From: Terriglobus sp. RCC_193
Lineage (GTDB): Bacteria; Acidobacteriota; Terriglobia; Terriglobales; Acidobacteriaceae
DNA: 64,000 bases
NCBI RefSeq assembly: GCF_041355105.1
Contig: NZ_JBFUPK010000002.1
Location: 62,001-126,000, forward strand
Reading direction: 5' to 3'
A program made the translations under genes and the position numbers. The notes under the pieces are model-generated. The model was not told where the DNA came from and searched no databases. It saw nothing but the letters and a program-made list of their open reading frames with translations. Shown here in pieces: positions 45,206 to 52,122 of this stretch (position 1 is the first letter of the stretch; every line of letters starts with the position of its first letter).

Positions 45206-46171
45206 TTACTTCGCAGGCTCAGAGATCGTAATGTTCCGATACCGAATCACACCGTGATGATCGCCCTGCAGGAAGAACGGTCCCGGCTCAGCTTCATTGC
45301 TATCCAGCGCGCCACCCGTCGGTCCCGGAATCTCCACGTTGTCGTGATACAGCTTGCCATCGCGATACACCGTCACATGCCGGCCAACAAACGTAACGTC
45401 GTAAGTCGTCCACTTGCCCAGACCCAGCTCCGAACCTGCTGGCGGCGGATACCAGCTATAGATCGCGCCCATCTCGTGCGTCGGCAGCTTGCCGCCTTCC
45501 GTACCCACCTGCAGCTCATAACGGCCACGCAGATAGATACCGCTGTTGCCGCCTTCCGGGCAGTTCACTTCAATGTGCAGCTTGAAGTCCTGGAACTTTT
45601 CCGTCGTCTTGATGTTCGCTGCAGGCTTCATCCGCTGGCCCGGAACTTCCGGGTTGTCATTCACGAGTTCGCCATCGCGAGCCACCCACTTGTTGTTCTC
45701 CACCATGCCGATGGGTTCCCAACCAGTCAGGTCCTTGCCATTGAAAATCGGACGCGGCTTCGTCCACTTCTTCGGCATAGGACGATCCAGCTTCGGCGCC
45801 GTCACACCGGCCAACGACGAACCATCAGCCTCGCCGCCACGCTTCTCCACGCCCGTCAACTTTCCTGCGCCAGCCGATGTCAGTTCCCAGCTCACCGCCG
45901 GACCACGGCCTGCAGGCTCCACAACCAGCACCAACTTGTCGCCATCCACATTGGCATCTGAAATCGCATGCCATGCGCCGCCACGCGGCTGATACTTGCC
46001 TTCCAACTTGCCGCCGTTATCGGTCAACTCAATCCACTGCGCATACGCCTTCCCCGAAGCAGGCGTAACCGTCATGTCCCAGCGACCCAGGAATGCTTTG
46101 GAGTCTTGCGCAGAGACAGTCGAGGCGAGCGCGGCAGCCAGCAGAGAGGCAAAAAGAATCTTCGTTTTCAC
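45206..46171 (-). CDS. Exported DUF1080 (3-keto-disaccharide hydrolase-type) protein
   Basis: This 321-residue protein has a signal peptide (KTKILFASLLAAALASTVSAQ). A lipocalin-like first part (AFLGRWDMTVTPASGKAYAQ) is followed by the DUF1080 jelly-roll: IFNGKDLTGWEP, FQDFKLHIEVNCPEGGNSGIYLRGRYELQV and GPFFLQGDHHGVIRYRNITI. The domain acts on 3-keto-glycosides or binds carbohydrate. The GTG at 46171 is chosen because the signal peptide starts there; the open frame reaches 46282. Periplasmic sugar processing is inferred from the family. Confidence 0.87.
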   Translation of the reverse strand: MKTKILFASLLAAALASTVSAQDSKAFLGRWDMTVTPASGKAYAQWIELTDNGGKLEGKYQPRGGAWHAISDANVDGDKLVLVVEPAGRGPAVSWELTSAGAGKLTGVEKRGGEADGSSLAGVTAPKLDRPMPKKWTKPRPIFNGKDLTGWEPIGMVENNKWVARDGELVNDNPEVPGQRMKPAANIKTTEKFQDFKLHIEVNCPEGGNSGIYLRGRYELQVGTEGGKLPTHEMGAIYSWYPPPAGSELGLGKWTTYDVTFVGRHVTVYRDGKLYHDNVEIPGPTGGALDSNEAEPGPFFLQGDHHGVIRYRNITISEPAK

Positions 46172-46324
46172 GGGTTCGAGTGTAACCGTTCTCGCCCTAC
46201 GACTGTCACCTGCTTTGTTAAACCTCCCGCAAAATGACGCGCCACCACAAGCCAAACAGATAAGCTTCTCCCCAGGCGCCACGCAAGAAGTCCCTCACGC
46301 GCAAAAAAATAATTTCCGGAACGC

Positions 46325-46353
46325 TGTCGAATCCCGTTTCACCCGTTCGTCGA
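46325..46353 (+). promoter_or_regulatory. ECF42-type promoter upstream of the YCII-YCII-sigma cassette
   Basis: TGTCGA at 46325-46330 and CGTC at 46348-46351 (within CGTCGA) are separated by 17 bp. From memory, ECF42 sigma factors recognise TGTCGA at -35 and CG(A/T)C at -10, and the spacing fits. The start codon of the first gene is about 45 bp downstream. This suggests autoregulation. Confidence 0.65.
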
Positions 46354-46397
46354 CAAAGTAATGGCGGGCAATCAACCTGCCAAAACAGGAGAAGCTC

Positions 46398-46817
46398 ATG
46401 CCGCAATTCCTCATTGCCGTGCAACACCCCAACAACTACGACCCTTCGCTTGAAGGCGACGACATGATCCGCGACATCAGCGCGCTCAACCAGGAGATGG
46501 ATGCCGCAGGCGCTCGCTTCTTCGCGGGCGGTCTTGAATCACCCAGCCACGCGAAATCGTTGCGCAAACAACCCAACGGCAACGTCTCCGTCACAGACGG
46601 CCCTTACCTCGAAGCCAAGGAATACATCGGCGGCTTCTGGATTCTCGAATGTGCCGACATGGACGAAGCGCTCGCCTGGGCACGCAAAGCCGTCATCGCC
46701 TGCCGCGTCCCCGTCGAAGTGCGAGAGTTCCACCGCTCCCCCCCCAAAGAAAATCCAACTAATCCCAGCACCCCACTACTTTTGAAACAAATAAGGAGCA
46801 ACAAATGCGTTTCATGA
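46398..46817 (+). CDS. YCII/DGPF-domain protein 1
   Basis: This 139-residue small dimeric alpha/beta barrel protein has FLIAVQHPNN at the start, then VTDGPYLEAKEYIGGFWILE, the DGPF-type block that names the family. Proteins of this type are co-encoded with ECF42 sigma factors. They may be enzymes or sensors; none has a settled role. AGGAG precedes the ATG. It overlaps the next gene by 13 bp, and its C-terminal tail beyond about residue 115 is not conserved-looking. Confidence 0.92.
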   Translation: MPQFLIAVQHPNNYDPSLEGDDMIRDISALNQEMDAAGARFFAGGLESPSHAKSLRKQPNGNVSVTDGPYLEAKEYIGGFWILECADMDEALAWARKAVIACRVPVEVREFHRSPPKENPTNPSTPLLLKQIRSNKCVS

Positions 46818-47218
46818 TGATCGTCATTCCCAAAGGCTACGAATCCGCCGCACCCGGTACAGTGCCCACCGCCGAAGCCGTGGCAAAAATGATGGAGTAC
46901 AACAAAGCTCTGCAACAGGCAGGCGTCCTCCTCGCTCTGGACGGTCTTCTGCCTCCGTCCACCGGCGCACGCGTCTCCTTTGTCAACGGCAAAGCCACCG
47001 TCACCGACGGCCCCTTCCCGGAAGCAAAAGAGGTTATCGGCGGCTATTGGATCATTCAGGTGCGCTCCCGCGAAGAAGCCATCGAATGGGCCAAACGCGC
47101 CCCCTTCGACGAAACCGGCATCATCGAAGTTCGCCAGATTCAGGAAATGTCTGACTTCCCCGAAGACGTCCAGAAGGCCGCGGAAGGCTTCGATCAACTC
47201 ACGAACAACACGCGATAA
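46805..47218 (+). CDS. YCII/DGPF-domain protein 2
   Basis: This 137-residue paralogue of the preceding protein opens MRFMMIVIPKGYESAAPG and has VTDGPFPEAKEVIGGYWIIQV, the canonical DGPF block. The overlap with gene 1 and the 3 bp gap to the sigma factor gene indicate a single translationally coupled operon. Confidence 0.95.
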   Translation: MRFMMIVIPKGYESAAPGTVPTAEAVAKMMEYNKALQQAGVLLALDGLLPPSTGARVSFVNGKATVTDGPFPEAKEVIGGYWIIQVRSREEAIEWAKRAPFDETGIIEVRQIQEMSDFPEDVQKAAEGFDQLTNNTR

Positions 47219-47221
47219 CCC

Positions 47222-48514
47222 ATGAGCGATGTCCGTAAAACAATTGAAGCCGTGTGGAAGATGGAATCCACACGGCTCATCGCTGCCATTGCCCGCGTCA
47301 CCCGCGACATCGGCATGGCAGAAGAACTCGCGCAGGACGCCCTCATCACCGCACTCGAAGTGTGGCCGGAAGAAGGCATCCCGCAAAATCCCGCGGCATG
47401 GCTCATGACCGCAGCCAAACGACGCGCCATCGACTCGCTCCGCCGTGGCCGCATGCTCCTGCAAAAGCATGAAGAGATCGCCCGCGAACTCGAGTGGCAA
47501 CAGCAGCAACTCGCCGACGCAATGGACCACGCACTCGATCAGGTCATCGAGGATGACGTCCTGCGCCTCATCTTCACCGCATGTCATCCCGTGCTGGCCG
47601 TCGAGGGCCGTATCGCACTCACACTGCGCCTCATCGGCGGCCTCACCACACCCGAGATTGCACGCGCCTTCCTCGTCCCGGAAAAGACTCTCGCACAACG
47701 CATCGTCCGCGCCAAGAAAACACTCACTGAAGCACACGTCCCCTTCGAAACACCACGCGGCGACGAGTTACATCGCAGGGTGGAATCCGTCCTCCTCGTC
47801 GTCTACCTCATCTTCAACGAGGGATACGCCGCAACCTCCGGCGACGAATGGATGCGCACCGCACTCTGCGAAGAAGCCTTGCGCATCACACGCATCCTCA
47901 CACAACTCATCCCCAAGGAGTCAGAAGCCCACGCACTTCTCGCCCTGATGGAACTGCAAGCCTCACGCACCGCAGCGCGACGAGGCAAAAACGGCGAAGC
48001 CATCTTGTTGCCCGATCAGAACCGTGCCCTCTGGGATCACGCACAGATTCATCGCGGCCTGAGGGCCCTCACACAAGCGCAAAGACTTGACGGCGGCGCG
48101 AAGCCCTATGCCCTGCAAGCCGCCATCGCTGCCTGCCACGCACAGGCCCGCACTGCGGAAGAGACAGACTGGGAACGGATTGTCCTTCTCTACGACGCGC
48201 TGATGCAGATCAATCCATCCCCCATCGTGGCCCTGAATCGAGCCGTAGCCGTCAGCATGGCGCAAGGTCCCGCCGCAGGCCTCGAAGCGCTCGACGCCAT
48301 AGCCAGACTCGCGAACAACTTCGAATTCACCAGCTATCACCTCTACCCCAGCGTGCGCGGCGATTTCCTCATCAAGCTGGGCCGCCTCACCGAAGCCAAA
48401 GAAGAAATCAAACGCGCCATCACCCTCACGCAAAACCAGCGCGAACAGGATCTGCTAACCCAAAAACTTCAACAAATCGAAGATACAAACCAATCCGTGC
48501 AGCCAAAAATGTAA
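47222..48514 (+). CDS. ECF42-type RNA polymerase sigma factor with C-terminal TPR-like extension
   Basis: This 430-residue protein has sigma region 2 at about residues 10-75 (IAAIARVTRDIGMAEELAQDA) and region 4 at about 105-165 (LRLIGGLTTPEIARAFLVPEKTLAQR). A long extension from about 180 has the DUF6596-like VVYLIFNEGYAAT block and TPR-like helices such as NPSPIVALNRAVAVSMAQGP. This matches the ECF42 group, in which the extension, rather than an anti-sigma factor, is thought to control activity. No anti-sigma gene is nearby. Confidence 0.95.
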   Translation: MSDVRKTIEAVWKMESTRLIAAIARVTRDIGMAEELAQDALITALEVWPEEGIPQNPAAWLMTAAKRRAIDSLRRGRMLLQKHEEIARELEWQQQQLADAMDHALDQVIEDDVLRLIFTACHPVLAVEGRIALTLRLIGGLTTPEIARAFLVPEKTLAQRIVRAKKTLTEAHVPFETPRGDELHRRVESVLLVVYLIFNEGYAATSGDEWMRTALCEEALRITRILTQLIPKESEAHALLALMELQASRTAARRGKNGEAILLPDQNRALWDHAQIHRGLRALTQAQRLDGGAKPYALQAAIAACHAQARTAEETDWERIVLLYDALMQINPSPIVALNRAVAVSMAQGPAAGLEALDAIARLANNFEFTSYHLYPSVRGDFLIKLGRLTEAKEEIKRAITLTQNQREQDLLTQKLQQIEDTNQSVQPKM

Positions 48515-48692
48515 TCACTAACCTCGGCATCGCTTAGCCCTTACGAGACCGGTAAAAAACGATGCAACAGGTTACAAAAAACACTGCGATTCAGCCTGGG
48601 ATCAAAGTCTAAGTAAGAACCCGCAACTTATACTCAGGCTCTATCCGCCACACTATTCTCACGGAATAACTGACGGTCAATCCTGCATGGCG

Positions 48693-48788
48693 AGTGATAT
48701 CACTTAACCTTGCTGATTTGGCAAAAAGTGATATCACTTTCCAGGACAGAGTAAGTCATAAGTGATATCACTCTGATATCACTTACTC
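48693..48788. promoter_or_regulatory. Array of four AGTGATATCACT palindromes (putative operator cluster)
   Basis: Perfect AGTGATATCACT copies start at 48693, 48727 and 48761, exactly 34 bp apart. The second extends to the 16 bp palindrome AAAGTGATATCACTTT (48725-48740). A fourth, degenerate copy (TCTGATATCACT) starts 11 bp after the third, at 48772. An outer inverted repeat GAGTAAGT (48749-48756) / ACTTACTC (48781-48788) encloses the last two. The regular phasing suggests cooperative binding by a dimeric regulator. Confidence 0.75.
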
Positions 48789-49016
48789 GTGTCAACTTTA
48801 GACATTTCTGCTGTCTCGTCAAAACCGGTTTTCGTAAAACACACCCACTCACAGCTGGAACTCTAATAGATGCAAGTAGTTATTCTTAACTCTTATCCGG
48901 TTGCCTGAAACTATCCATATTTTTCAAGACTTTCGTGTTATTCCAAGTACAACTTCAGATAGTCATGCTGCTGCTTACTTCCCCTTCCTCGGGGATAAGT
49001 AATTCCAGCGGAGGAA

Positions 49017-49118
49017 ATGACCGGTGAAAAAGACCTTGAGCTCAAGAGACTGCGGACGCATGCCTGTTCACACATGGAGCAAACCCACAATGTGCGTGGT
49101 GCACATAAAAGATGCTGA
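49017..49118 (+). CDS. Possible small ORF behind the palindrome array
   Basis: A 33-codon frame (starting MTGEKDLELKRLRTHACSH) begins 2 bp after GGAGGAA, about 230 bp downstream of the palindrome array. The start spacing is short and I recognise no family. It is the only frame in the array's shadow with a ribosome-binding site. Confidence 0.2.
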   Translation: MTGEKDLELKRLRTHACSHMEQTHNVRGAHKRC

Positions 49119-49285
49119 GAACGGCGGCCCAAGCCTCGGCCTTGATGTCGTCGTCGGAGCCGGAGGCGTTTTCATCAGCACCAGCTCCTAGATAGATATC
49201 CAACACGTTGTAATCCTCAGGTGCGGCCCCCAGGGAAAACCGCACCTTCTTTTTTTGCGCGGCCTCCCATACAACGAAACCTTTC

Positions 49286-49351
49286 CCTTTCGAACAAAGA
49301 GAAGAAATCCTTTCGAACCAAAGAAAAGGAATATTTCCTTTCGAACCAAAT
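49286..49351 (+). repeat. Three direct repeats of CCTTTCGAACCAAA
   Basis: Copies at 49286-49299, 49309-49323 and 49337-49351 differ by one or two bases and each contains the palindrome TTCGAA. Spacer segments are A-rich. Function is unknown. Confidence 0.7.
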
Positions 49352-49485
49352 AAAAAGAACCTGCAAACCAGCTTCGTCAAAGCGAACACGCCAACGACAA
49401 AGTGCTTCCAGCGAAACTCCAACGAACAAGTGCTTCCAGAAAAGCTCCAACAATCAAAGACCATCCCCAGCGAAGCTCCTACGGT

Positions 49486-49690
49486 CGAAGACCGTCATCC
49501 TGAACGAAGCGAAGCGTAGCTGAAGGACCTGCATTCCTCTCAACCCTCTACAACCCATCAGGAAGCCCAAAACGAACCACCAGCCAAAGAACCGGGTGCC
49601 CCAGGTTCGCGAAGCTAACCTGGGCAGAGCGGCAAAAGCCGCTCTCCATCGCTCCACAGGAGCGATCCAGCGCGCAAAGCACGTCTTCTT
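49486..49690 (+). repeat. Dispersed intergenic repeat, copy F
   Basis: The order of blocks differs from D and E: GACCGTCATCCTGAACGAAG...GGACCTGCATTCC comes first, then the CCCAGGTT/AACCTGGG stem, then AGAGCGGC-AAAA-GCCGCTCT and GGCACGGCTTCAGCCGTGCC hairpins. Confidence 0.85.
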
Positions 49691-49738
49691 TGAAGGGGCA
49701 CGGCTTCAGCCGTGCCATAAGAAACCCAAACCAAGAAA

Positions 49739-49809
49739 ACCGCGCGGCCAAAAAAACAAACAGGAGCATAAATCAAACCCCGCGCGCCCTAAGAAAGATC
49801 ATGGCTGGC
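49739..49809 (+). repeat. Second dispersed repeat, copy 2
   Basis: This block matches 39161-39232: ACCGCGCGG at the start, ACAAACAGGAGCA in the middle and ATGGCTGGC at the end. The 3'-UTR element follows 5 bp later. Confidence 0.7.
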
Positions 49810-49814
49810 GCCAA

Positions 49815-49844
49815 GCCGAAGGCGTCGAGAACAGCACGAAGTGC
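49815..49844 (-). other. 3'-UTR element copy 2 (twin UUC(G) hairpins)
   Basis: Minus-strand sequence starting 1 nt after the metallophosphatase stop reads GCAC-UUC-GUGC, a 10-nt linker, then GCC-UUC-GGC. Compared with 17031-17060 a U-A pair is replaced by C-G in the first stem. The other 28 positions are identical. Confidence 0.6.
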
Positions 49845-49845
49845 C

Positions 49846-50925
49846 CTACGACTTCAGAATCGTAACTTTCCCATCCGTCGTTTTGCGGAAGGCATGTAAC
49901 TGGTTTGCACCCGCGCCCACATGCCGCAGAATCACCCCATCCTTCGCCGCTTCCAGGTGGGTAAACCCGATCACGCGTCCGCCATAAGGACCACGTTTCT
50001 CTGGTGGAATGGACCAATTCACCAACTCCGCGCCGCCACCGCCACTCACCACAAACGACGTAGGATGCCCATCAAACTCCAGGTGCTGCAGGTCATGGTC
50101 ATGCCCGGTGATGTAGAAGTCCACCTTGTGCTGCCGCAGCAAAGGATCCCATCGCGGAATCAGGATGCGGTTATCGCGGTGCACGCCGTTCGTATACAGC
50201 GGATGATGGCAGACCACCGCCACAAACGGCGTTGTCCGCGGCTTGCGTAGCTGCTCTGCGAACCACGCATCCTGCGTATCGGCCTCGGCGTGGCTCATCA
50301 TGTAGCTGCCCGGTGTAAAGTCCCACGCCTTCGTACCCGGCAGGTTGGAGTCCAGGCAGATGAACGTGATCAGCGGGTTCTTCTCCGGCCATGTGAAGGT
50401 GTAGCGCTTGCTTGGCAACGTCCAGCGCGTCTTGTGCTGCTTCGGATAGTCGAGCTGGAGTTGTACCTTATCGAACCCGGCATGGTGCTCGTAGTCATGG
50501 TTCCCCAGCACCGCATACGCAGGTCCGGGAAACAGGTTCGCCGGATACATGTTCTCGAACTGATTGTTCCACCGCGGATCGTTCGTGCCGCCGGGAAGAC
50601 GGCCATACCAGTTGTCTCCCAGCAGGAACATCGCACCGGGATTGCTGTGGTTGTTCTCCATCCACTTCGCCATGGACACGGCCACAGCCTTCTGCTGGTC
50701 CAGATACTTATCCGTACCCCAGTCCCCAATCATGAACATATGTGCCGCCCCCGGATCGGGCCTGGCAAAAGATGTCGATTGGGCAAACAGCGACGAAGGA
50801 TGCATCGCTGCCAGAGCGGAGAATGCGAATGTCTGCCGCAGAAACGACCGGCGCGATAGAGAATGCAGTTCTGCCAATATCCCAGCTCCTGTTTCTGGAC
50901 TCGGCGGCCGGACAGGAACCGGCAC
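49846..50925 (-). CDS. Tat-exported metallophosphoesterase (purple acid phosphatase-like)
   Basis: This 359-residue protein has a twin-arginine signal (LSRRSFLRQ, then a hydrophobic stretch to FAQ). Calcineurin-type metal ligands follow: MIGDWGTD, LLGDNWYG, VLGNHDYEHH, VVCHHPLYTNG and ITGHDHDLQHL. It probably hydrolyses phosphomonoesters in the periplasm with an Fe/Zn/Mn dimetal site. Tat export fits folding with metal in the cytosol. The start at 50925 leaves a rather long n-region; a start nearer the RR motif is possible. Confidence 0.9.
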   Translation of the reverse strand: MPVPVRPPSPETGAGILAELHSLSRRSFLRQTFAFSALAAMHPSSLFAQSTSFARPDPGAAHMFMIGDWGTDKYLDQQKAVAVSMAKWMENNHSNPGAMFLLGDNWYGRLPGGTNDPRWNNQFENMYPANLFPGPAYAVLGNHDYEHHAGFDKVQLQLDYPKQHKTRWTLPSKRYTFTWPEKNPLITFICLDSNLPGTKAWDFTPGSYMMSHAEADTQDAWFAEQLRKPRTTPFVAVVCHHPLYTNGVHRDNRILIPRWDPLLRQHKVDFYITGHDHDLQHLEFDGHPTSFVVSGGGGAELVNWSIPPEKRGPYGGRVIGFTHLEAAKDGVILRHVGAGANQLHAFRKTTDGKVTILKS

Positions 50926-51063
50926 GTCTTGGAAAGTGTCCCAGATGCGGCTTACGCCAACCTTAAGACCGCATCAACCTCTGCACTTCCGATGCAATGA
51001 CACAGTCAGCGGCTGTCCGCAGGGAACGCAACGACCGAATCCGTGGGACGGCTACGATCCCGC

Positions 51064-52122
51064 TTAACGACGCCCGATCGCTCCGGGGTCCGGCACGAAG
51101 TACAGGAACGCTCCCAGGGCAATCAGCAGTGCCAGATACACCGTAAGCGTCCTCACGCTGTTCTCCTGCGGCGCATCCGGCGTAAACATACGCCACGCCA
51201 TGCCCGCAGCCAGGAACAGGAAGACCCCCTCATGCATCAGTCCGAAGAACAGCACACACGACACCAGCAGTAATCCGCGTCCCAGCCGGTTCAGCGCATA
51301 CGTTGCCTGCGCGCCGTCAAACCACAGCACTGGTATCAGGTTCACCAGGTTGATCAGTGCGCCGGTATACGCCAGCGCCTGGAACACAGGCTGATGCGTC
51401 CACACATACAGCCCAAGACATGCGAACGCCGCACCCAGTCCCCATACCGGCCCCGCCAGCGCAATGGCCGCCAGCTCCGGCAGCGTGATGCCCTCGCTGT
51501 ACCAGCGGACATATGCCCCCAGCCCCGGTAGCAGCACCGGCAGGTCCGCCCGCAGCCCCCGGCGGCGTACCGCCACATAATGCCCCATCTCATGCACAAG
51601 GATCGCTGCAATAAATCCAAGCGCAAATTTCCAGCCGAACAGCGCCCAATACAACGCGAAGTAGCCCAGAAATCCCAGCAGGAACTTCAGCTTGAAGATG
51701 AGGAAGAAGAAACTCTTCAGCTTCACTGCAGCTATGAACAGCGGAAACAACGGTCCTAACCGTTTCTTCCACTTTGCCTGGCGATCGTCTACTGCCTGTT
51801 GCCGTCCATTCAGCGCAGCAATATGCCGTCGAATCTGTTCCGCCTGCGAAGCATCTTCCGGCAGCCAAGGCAGAGCCGACAGCCATAGCTCACGCGCATC
51901 TGCCAAACGGTCTTCCTGCTCCGCACGCGCCGCCGCCGCACCAATGCGGTTCAGATGCTGCGAATACACAAGCGTGCCGCAATCGGGACACGCAAGCACT
52001 CCTTCCGCAATCCAATGCTCGCAGTTTGGGCAGGAGTAGATCGCCTCAGGAGGAGAAATAACCGACGGTTCCGTCGTTACAGAGTCCGGTAAGAGAGCAT
52101 TCGAGTTGGCATAGTCCGACAC
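51064..52122 (-). CDS. Zinc-ribbon M50 site-2-protease-family membrane protein
   Basis: This 352-residue protein has an N-terminal zinc ribbon (C31, C34, C45, C48) and a soluble helical part with coiled-coil character (about 60-120). The membrane-embedded metalloprotease core follows, with HEMGH at residues 177-181 and a later NLIPVLWFDGAQ in place of the usual NxxPxxxxDG. M50 proteases cut regulatory membrane proteins. The substrate is unknown. It follows the DtxR/MntR regulator by 27 bp on the same strand. Confidence 0.9.
   Translation of the reverse strand: MSDYANSNALLPDSVTTEPSVISPPEAIYSCPNCEHWIAEGVLACPDCGTLVYSQHLNRIGAAAARAEQEDRLADARELWLSALPWLPEDASQAEQIRRHIAALNGRQQAVDDRQAKWKKRLGPLFPLFIAAVKLKSFFFLIFKLKFLLGFLGYFALYWALFGWKFALGFIAAILVHEMGHYVAVRRRGLRADLPVLLPGLGAYVRWYSEGITLPELAAIALAGPVWGLGAAFACLGLYVWTHQPVFQALAYTGALINLVNLIPVLWFDGAQATYALNRLGRGLLLVSCVLFFGLMHEGVFLFLAAGMAWRMFTPDAPQENSVRTLTVYLALLIALGAFLYFVPDPGAIGRR

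Follow-up and report, generated by a model that had tools for sequence, protein, structure and literature searches.

What is a cluster of identical short palindromes doing between two convergent genes? We analyzed this question for an array in a 64-kb window (i.e., the whole stretch of DNA under study, 64,000 nucleotides). The array and the signal nearest to it consist of the following features:

48693-48704, no strand: operator-like palindrome copy 1, AGTGATATCACT, with flanks gAGTGATATCACTta
48727-48738, no strand: operator-like palindrome copy 2, AGTGATATCACT within aAGTGATATCACTt
48761-48772, no strand: operator-like palindrome copy 3, AGTGATATCACT within aAGTGATATCACTc
48772-48783, no strand: degenerate copy 4, TCTGATATCACT (TCTGATATCACTt), with 2 mismatches
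48749-48788, no strand: outer inverted repeat around copies 3 and 4, GAGTAAGT (48749-48756) and ACTTACTC (48781-48788)
48795-48822, minus strand: TTGACG-16-TAAAGT, a weak promoter-like pair of hexamers directed into the array

An earlier note on this DNA had described three perfect palindromes at a 34-bp pitch, a degenerate copy 11 bp on, and an outer inverted repeat around the last two copies, and all of these elements are present in the sequence. The perfect copies are spaced 34 and 34 bp from start to start, and copy 4 begins 11 bp after copy 3 with one base common to both; together, copies 3 and 4 form a single 27-bp palindrome, TAAGTGATATCA-CTC-TGATATCACTTA. Direct reading also reveals an extra half-site-like AAGTCAT within the outer inverted repeat. 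The array had been called phased, which holds for its exact base-pair pitch and not for the helix: 34 bp corresponds to 3.24 helical turns, so copies at this spacing do not lie on one helix face, whereas the 11-bp step (1.05 turns) keeps its two copies on the same face. Since the spacers between copies 1 and 2 and copies 2 and 3 (22 bp each) are unrelated in sequence, the array is not a 34-bp tandem repeat, and the lack of further exact copies in the genome speaks against a dispersed repeat element as well. We found 23 perfect 12-bp palindromes in the window, and AGTGATATCACT is the sole one that recurs. None of 200 simulated windows (first-order Markov, with the window's own dinucleotide frequencies) contained a 12-bp palindrome three times in 100 bp or twice in 50 bp. 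A cruder simulation, which allowed recurrence anywhere in 64 kb, gave 2 triples per 100 runs, indicating that the clustering is what exceeds chance.

A genome-wide search for other copies, as proposed earlier, recovered exact AGTGATATCACT only at the three positions of the array in the 4.22-Mb genome. With two mismatches allowed, the genome contains 69 matches compared to 29 for a reversed control pattern. Of the eleven near-matches read, which include all three one-mismatch sites, nine are clearly within long frames; of the other two, one falls in a 120-codon frame and one outside any long frame. Since these near-matches fall mostly in coding frames, the genome has no visible set of further operators.

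The array lies within a variable slot (approximately 48490-49809) between conserved sigma-factor and phosphoesterase genes, which are convergent as the earlier note had stated, the former (plus strand) ending at 48514 and the latter (minus strand) at 49846. In the two closest relatives (G008 and G005; 87% DNA identity), the left side is conserved, with genes of YCII type and for the sigma factor (DUF6596), as is the phosphoesterase gene to the right, and the roughly 1.3 kb of slot content is replaced by non-homologous genes. G008 contains a BlaI-type repressor and a BlaR1/DUF3738 protein (L213, 2374-4586); the protein in G005 is 819 residues long and has an eCIS core domain (L214, 2296-4755). 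The pairing of DUF3738 with BlaR1 in G008 suggests Acidobacteriota. The slot in these two relatives appears as a minor hot spot where genes are exchanged, bounded by conserved ones. BlaI of G008 was considered as a source of the sites and rejected, only unrelated near-palindromes such as TGACAATTGTCG being present upstream of it. Conservation of the palindromes in close relatives, on which the earlier reading had in part been staked, did not hold up: across the 7.5 kb compared, the array and TGATATCA sites are absent from both closest relatives. Paired arrays were absent from the 300 family and 396 phylum genomes sampled, DNA of the array region was not found in 18 other genomes of the genus, and the unique piece 48515-49391 had no convincing match in 398 family genomes, plasmids, or phages. 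BLAST against plasmids and phages returned short chance matches only for the array region and none for 48515-49391. A Cryobacterium plasmid match proved to be one single site, not an array, and a 45-bp match in a family genome (G726) lies inside a TPR-type gene and looks like chance. The lack of other matches is explained by slot content that differs in each relative. On its right side the slot contains a dispersed repeat (approximately 49392-49844), of which there are many copies elsewhere in the same genome (82-94% identical, on both large contigs) and of which relatives carry fragments; the repeat adjoins the slot's right-hand end and may help slot exchanges. Two short imperfect tandem repeats with a period of approximately 28 are located at 49286-49459, between the array and the dispersed repeat.

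The absence of a regulator and of a clear target beside the array, remarked on in the earlier note, was confirmed. We found no ribbon-helix-helix (RHH) frame or remnant in 46000-52000, and the array has no adjacent cognate RHH gene. The RHH genes found in the genome comprise one antitoxin-like gene followed by a toxin-like gene, two genes with conjugation-type neighbours, and two small HicB-like genes (L215 and L216), and the stretches read around them contain no TGATATCA site. A weak or divergent RHH gene, or the HicB-like L215 or L216, could be the cognate of the array.

The same palindrome at other loci points to a class of protein. Among approximately 85,000 genomes, one per species, exact AGTGATATCACT pairs were found at only three other loci. 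At L006 the sites lie in a near-consensus TTGACA-N17-TATAAT promoter, between and after the hexamers, and a divergent Arc-family gene adjoins; at L004 the pair lies in the TTGACA...TAAAGT promoter of an SPFH gene that is followed by an RHH gene; and at L005, where no clear RHH gene is present, the pair precedes a YafQ-type toxin locus by approximately 175 bp. At L008, from viral contigs, a pair is located just upstream of hicAB (HicB, 4e-16). Paired GTGATATCAC occurs in 41 viral stretches compared to 8 and 8 for two same-composition control palindromes, a fivefold excess over either control in viral contigs; a portion of the 41 are repeats within tail-fibre-like phage genes, and many contain 2-4 GTGATATCAC sites that either directly adjoin a small RHH gene or run over its start. 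The viral contigs L154, L155, L162, L140, L151, and L142 carry 2-4 GTGATATCAC sites at small RHH genes. A scan of viral contigs for single AAGTGATATCACTT sites returned mostly chance sites in coding DNA and was uninformative.

Leave-family-out profiles were applied per locus to avoid circularity, and an RHH frame was counted if it lay within 100 bp of the array with E<0.1. Such frames were present at 14 of 44 loci compared to 1 of 16 control loci, with most E values far below 0.1; this locus-level contrast is modest, several GTGATATCAC arrays having no RHH neighbour. The 14 loci comprise eight unrelated clusters (L139, L140/157/172, L142, L151/156, L154/164, L155/163/174, L162, and L006). Several of the array-linked RHH frames match RHH_1, Arc, HicB, or CopG Pfam profiles (below the cut-off) or Arc-like and repressor PHROGs; for most of the frames, the Pfam and PHROG matches are consistent with RHH, though mostly below curated cut-offs. 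The comparison arrays have pitches of 11-52 bp (e.g., 32/11/22 at L150 and 31/24/19 at L162) and resemble the 34/34/11 spacing seen here. At the one control locus with an RHH frame (L225, 4692-4989), an array of the control palindrome GAGATATCTC adjoins an RHH gene, so GATATC-centred sites may be a wider RHH habit, and other GATATC-centred arrays may mark other RHH repressors. It is possible that GTGATATCAC arrays represent an operator code shared by unrelated phage repressors. Among the papers listed in our literature search for GTGATATCAC or TGATATCA, none was an operator paper, and a match in a toxin-antitoxin paper was a primer.

Together, these data suggest that the array is an orphan set of operators for an RHH-type repressor, lying in a lineage-specific slot with neither a regulator nor a recognizable target, a reading to which we assign a probability of roughly 0.55. 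The same 12-14-mer inverted repeat is found at L004, L006, and L008, beside RHH genes, and its core is found in L140, L154, L155, L162, and others. The idea that this is an operator-type site bound by dimers gains support by analogy from these comparisons, given that RHH repressor genes lie next to arrays of this palindrome in many unrelated phages and in some bacteria. Published work on the RHH protein ParB of pSM19035 lends independent support, its recognition core being the ATCAC of the half-site (PMC9499535). We infer that each 12-14 bp palindrome would take at least one RHH (Arc/CopG/HicB-like) dimer through the half-site AGTGAT/ATCACT, and that neighbouring sites would be filled cooperatively, which would shut a promoter. 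Most likely, the array would have arrived with a small regulatory locus of phage, plasmid, or toxin-antitoxin type that has since lost its genes, or be what such a locus left behind. The earlier suggestion of a remnant of a lost element fits a slot whose content differs in each close relative, and the array is quite possibly a relic; its three perfect copies fit present-day selection as well as recent acquisition. It is more probably a piece of regulatory DNA that has strayed or been left behind than an element of a new kind.

A live operator would require a repressor encoded elsewhere (e.g., a stand-alone HicB-like RHH protein) acting in trans on a small transcript, on a nearby ORF, or on a minus-strand transcript from near 48788. 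The two small HicB-like RHH genes of the genome could supply such a repressor, and the 55-codon ORF at 49024-49191, the sole ORF there with a good ribosome-binding site, has a GTG start preceded by a well-placed GGAGG. This ORF, however, has no homologue in 398 family genomes and no Pfam or PHROG match, and a minus-strand ORF (49042-49464) has no homologues among 150 relatives. Weak promoter-like hexamers are the only promoter signal at the array; they point into it from the right, but 0.9 such sites are expected by chance, and the site at 48795-48822 is therefore not evidence of function. No RNA family reached the Rfam gathering score, and the candidate RHH genes have no TGATATCA site nearby, unlike the array-linked RHH genes. 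The earlier proposal that the array controls an unannotated small RNA or ORF thus found no backing in homologues or Rfam families, and a live operator seems unlikely. Given no regulator, no homologous ORF, no RNA family, and signals within chance expectation, we prefer an orphan or relic operator. The operator might instead belong to a helix-turn-helix repressor (Cro/XRE-like or another family), for which palindromic multi-site operators are the usual pattern, and near the L150 array there is a gene of XRE type but none of RHH type. At other loci, though, it is RHH genes that recur beside this palindrome, and a helix-turn-helix repressor is an unlikely candidate.

The remaining explanations fare worse. 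Strong folding of the strand (z -6.1) and the position between convergent genes would suit an RNA element, be it a terminator acting in both directions or hairpins in the 3' part of the sigma-factor transcript. The folding arises because the DNA palindromes themselves fold, and since it is a by-product of this kind and no U-run follows the stem, an RNA role is very unlikely. No intrinsic terminator was called at the array, terminator-like sites do not exceed chance, and the array lies 180 bp past the sigma-factor gene and more than 1 kb from the phosphoesterase gene. The earlier note had also raised a parS-like site, which would serve a partition system as its centromere. The 7-bp repeats bound by the RHH-type ParB of pSM19035, AATCACT/AGTGATT among them (PMC9499535), have the ATCAC core seen here, and some array-linked RHH proteins match PHROGs annotated as partition proteins. 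However, pSM19035 parS requires at least four contiguous heptads without gaps (PMC9499535), and the array has 22-bp gaps. When the comparison loci were scanned for a Walker-A pattern, L008 alone gave a ParA-like motif, more than 2 kb from the array there. The lack of contiguous heptads and the restriction of ParA-like motifs to this one comparison array make a parS-like site highly improbable. There is also no RHH frame within approximately 3 kb of the array; the site itself lies on a contig of 1.69 Mb, and relatives lack it. We regard as barely credible a chromosomal sink that serves no gene of its own and would soak up RHH repressors or antitoxins from incoming phages and plasmids sharing the AGTGATATCACT code.

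Taken alone, this probable orphan operator array of RHH type, unattached and lying in variable DNA, is of modest weight. Of wider use are the GTGATATCAC arrays beside unrelated RHH repressors in phages and bacteria: they could serve as a simple tag by which to find such regulators in sequence data, and they provide an operator code that can be tested.

Among known systems, pSM19035 parS (with the RHH ParB, omega) shares the ATCAC core, and the TATCACT of the array fits its 7-bp repeat, but here the heptads stand head to head in separated palindromes and are not contiguous. Arc/CopG/HicB-type RHH operators of toxin-antitoxin systems and phage autoregulation differ from the array in that it has no adjacent RHH gene or cognate found and no promoter-gene unit beside it. 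They resemble it in their repeated short palindromes with the half-site (A)AGTGAT/ATCACT(T) and in being multi-site, with spacings of about 11-34 bp. The HicAB promoter operator of L008, L039, and L152 is likewise comparable: although no HicA or HicB frame follows the array in the window, that operator also consists of two AAGTGATATCACTT-like sites, at a pitch of 24.
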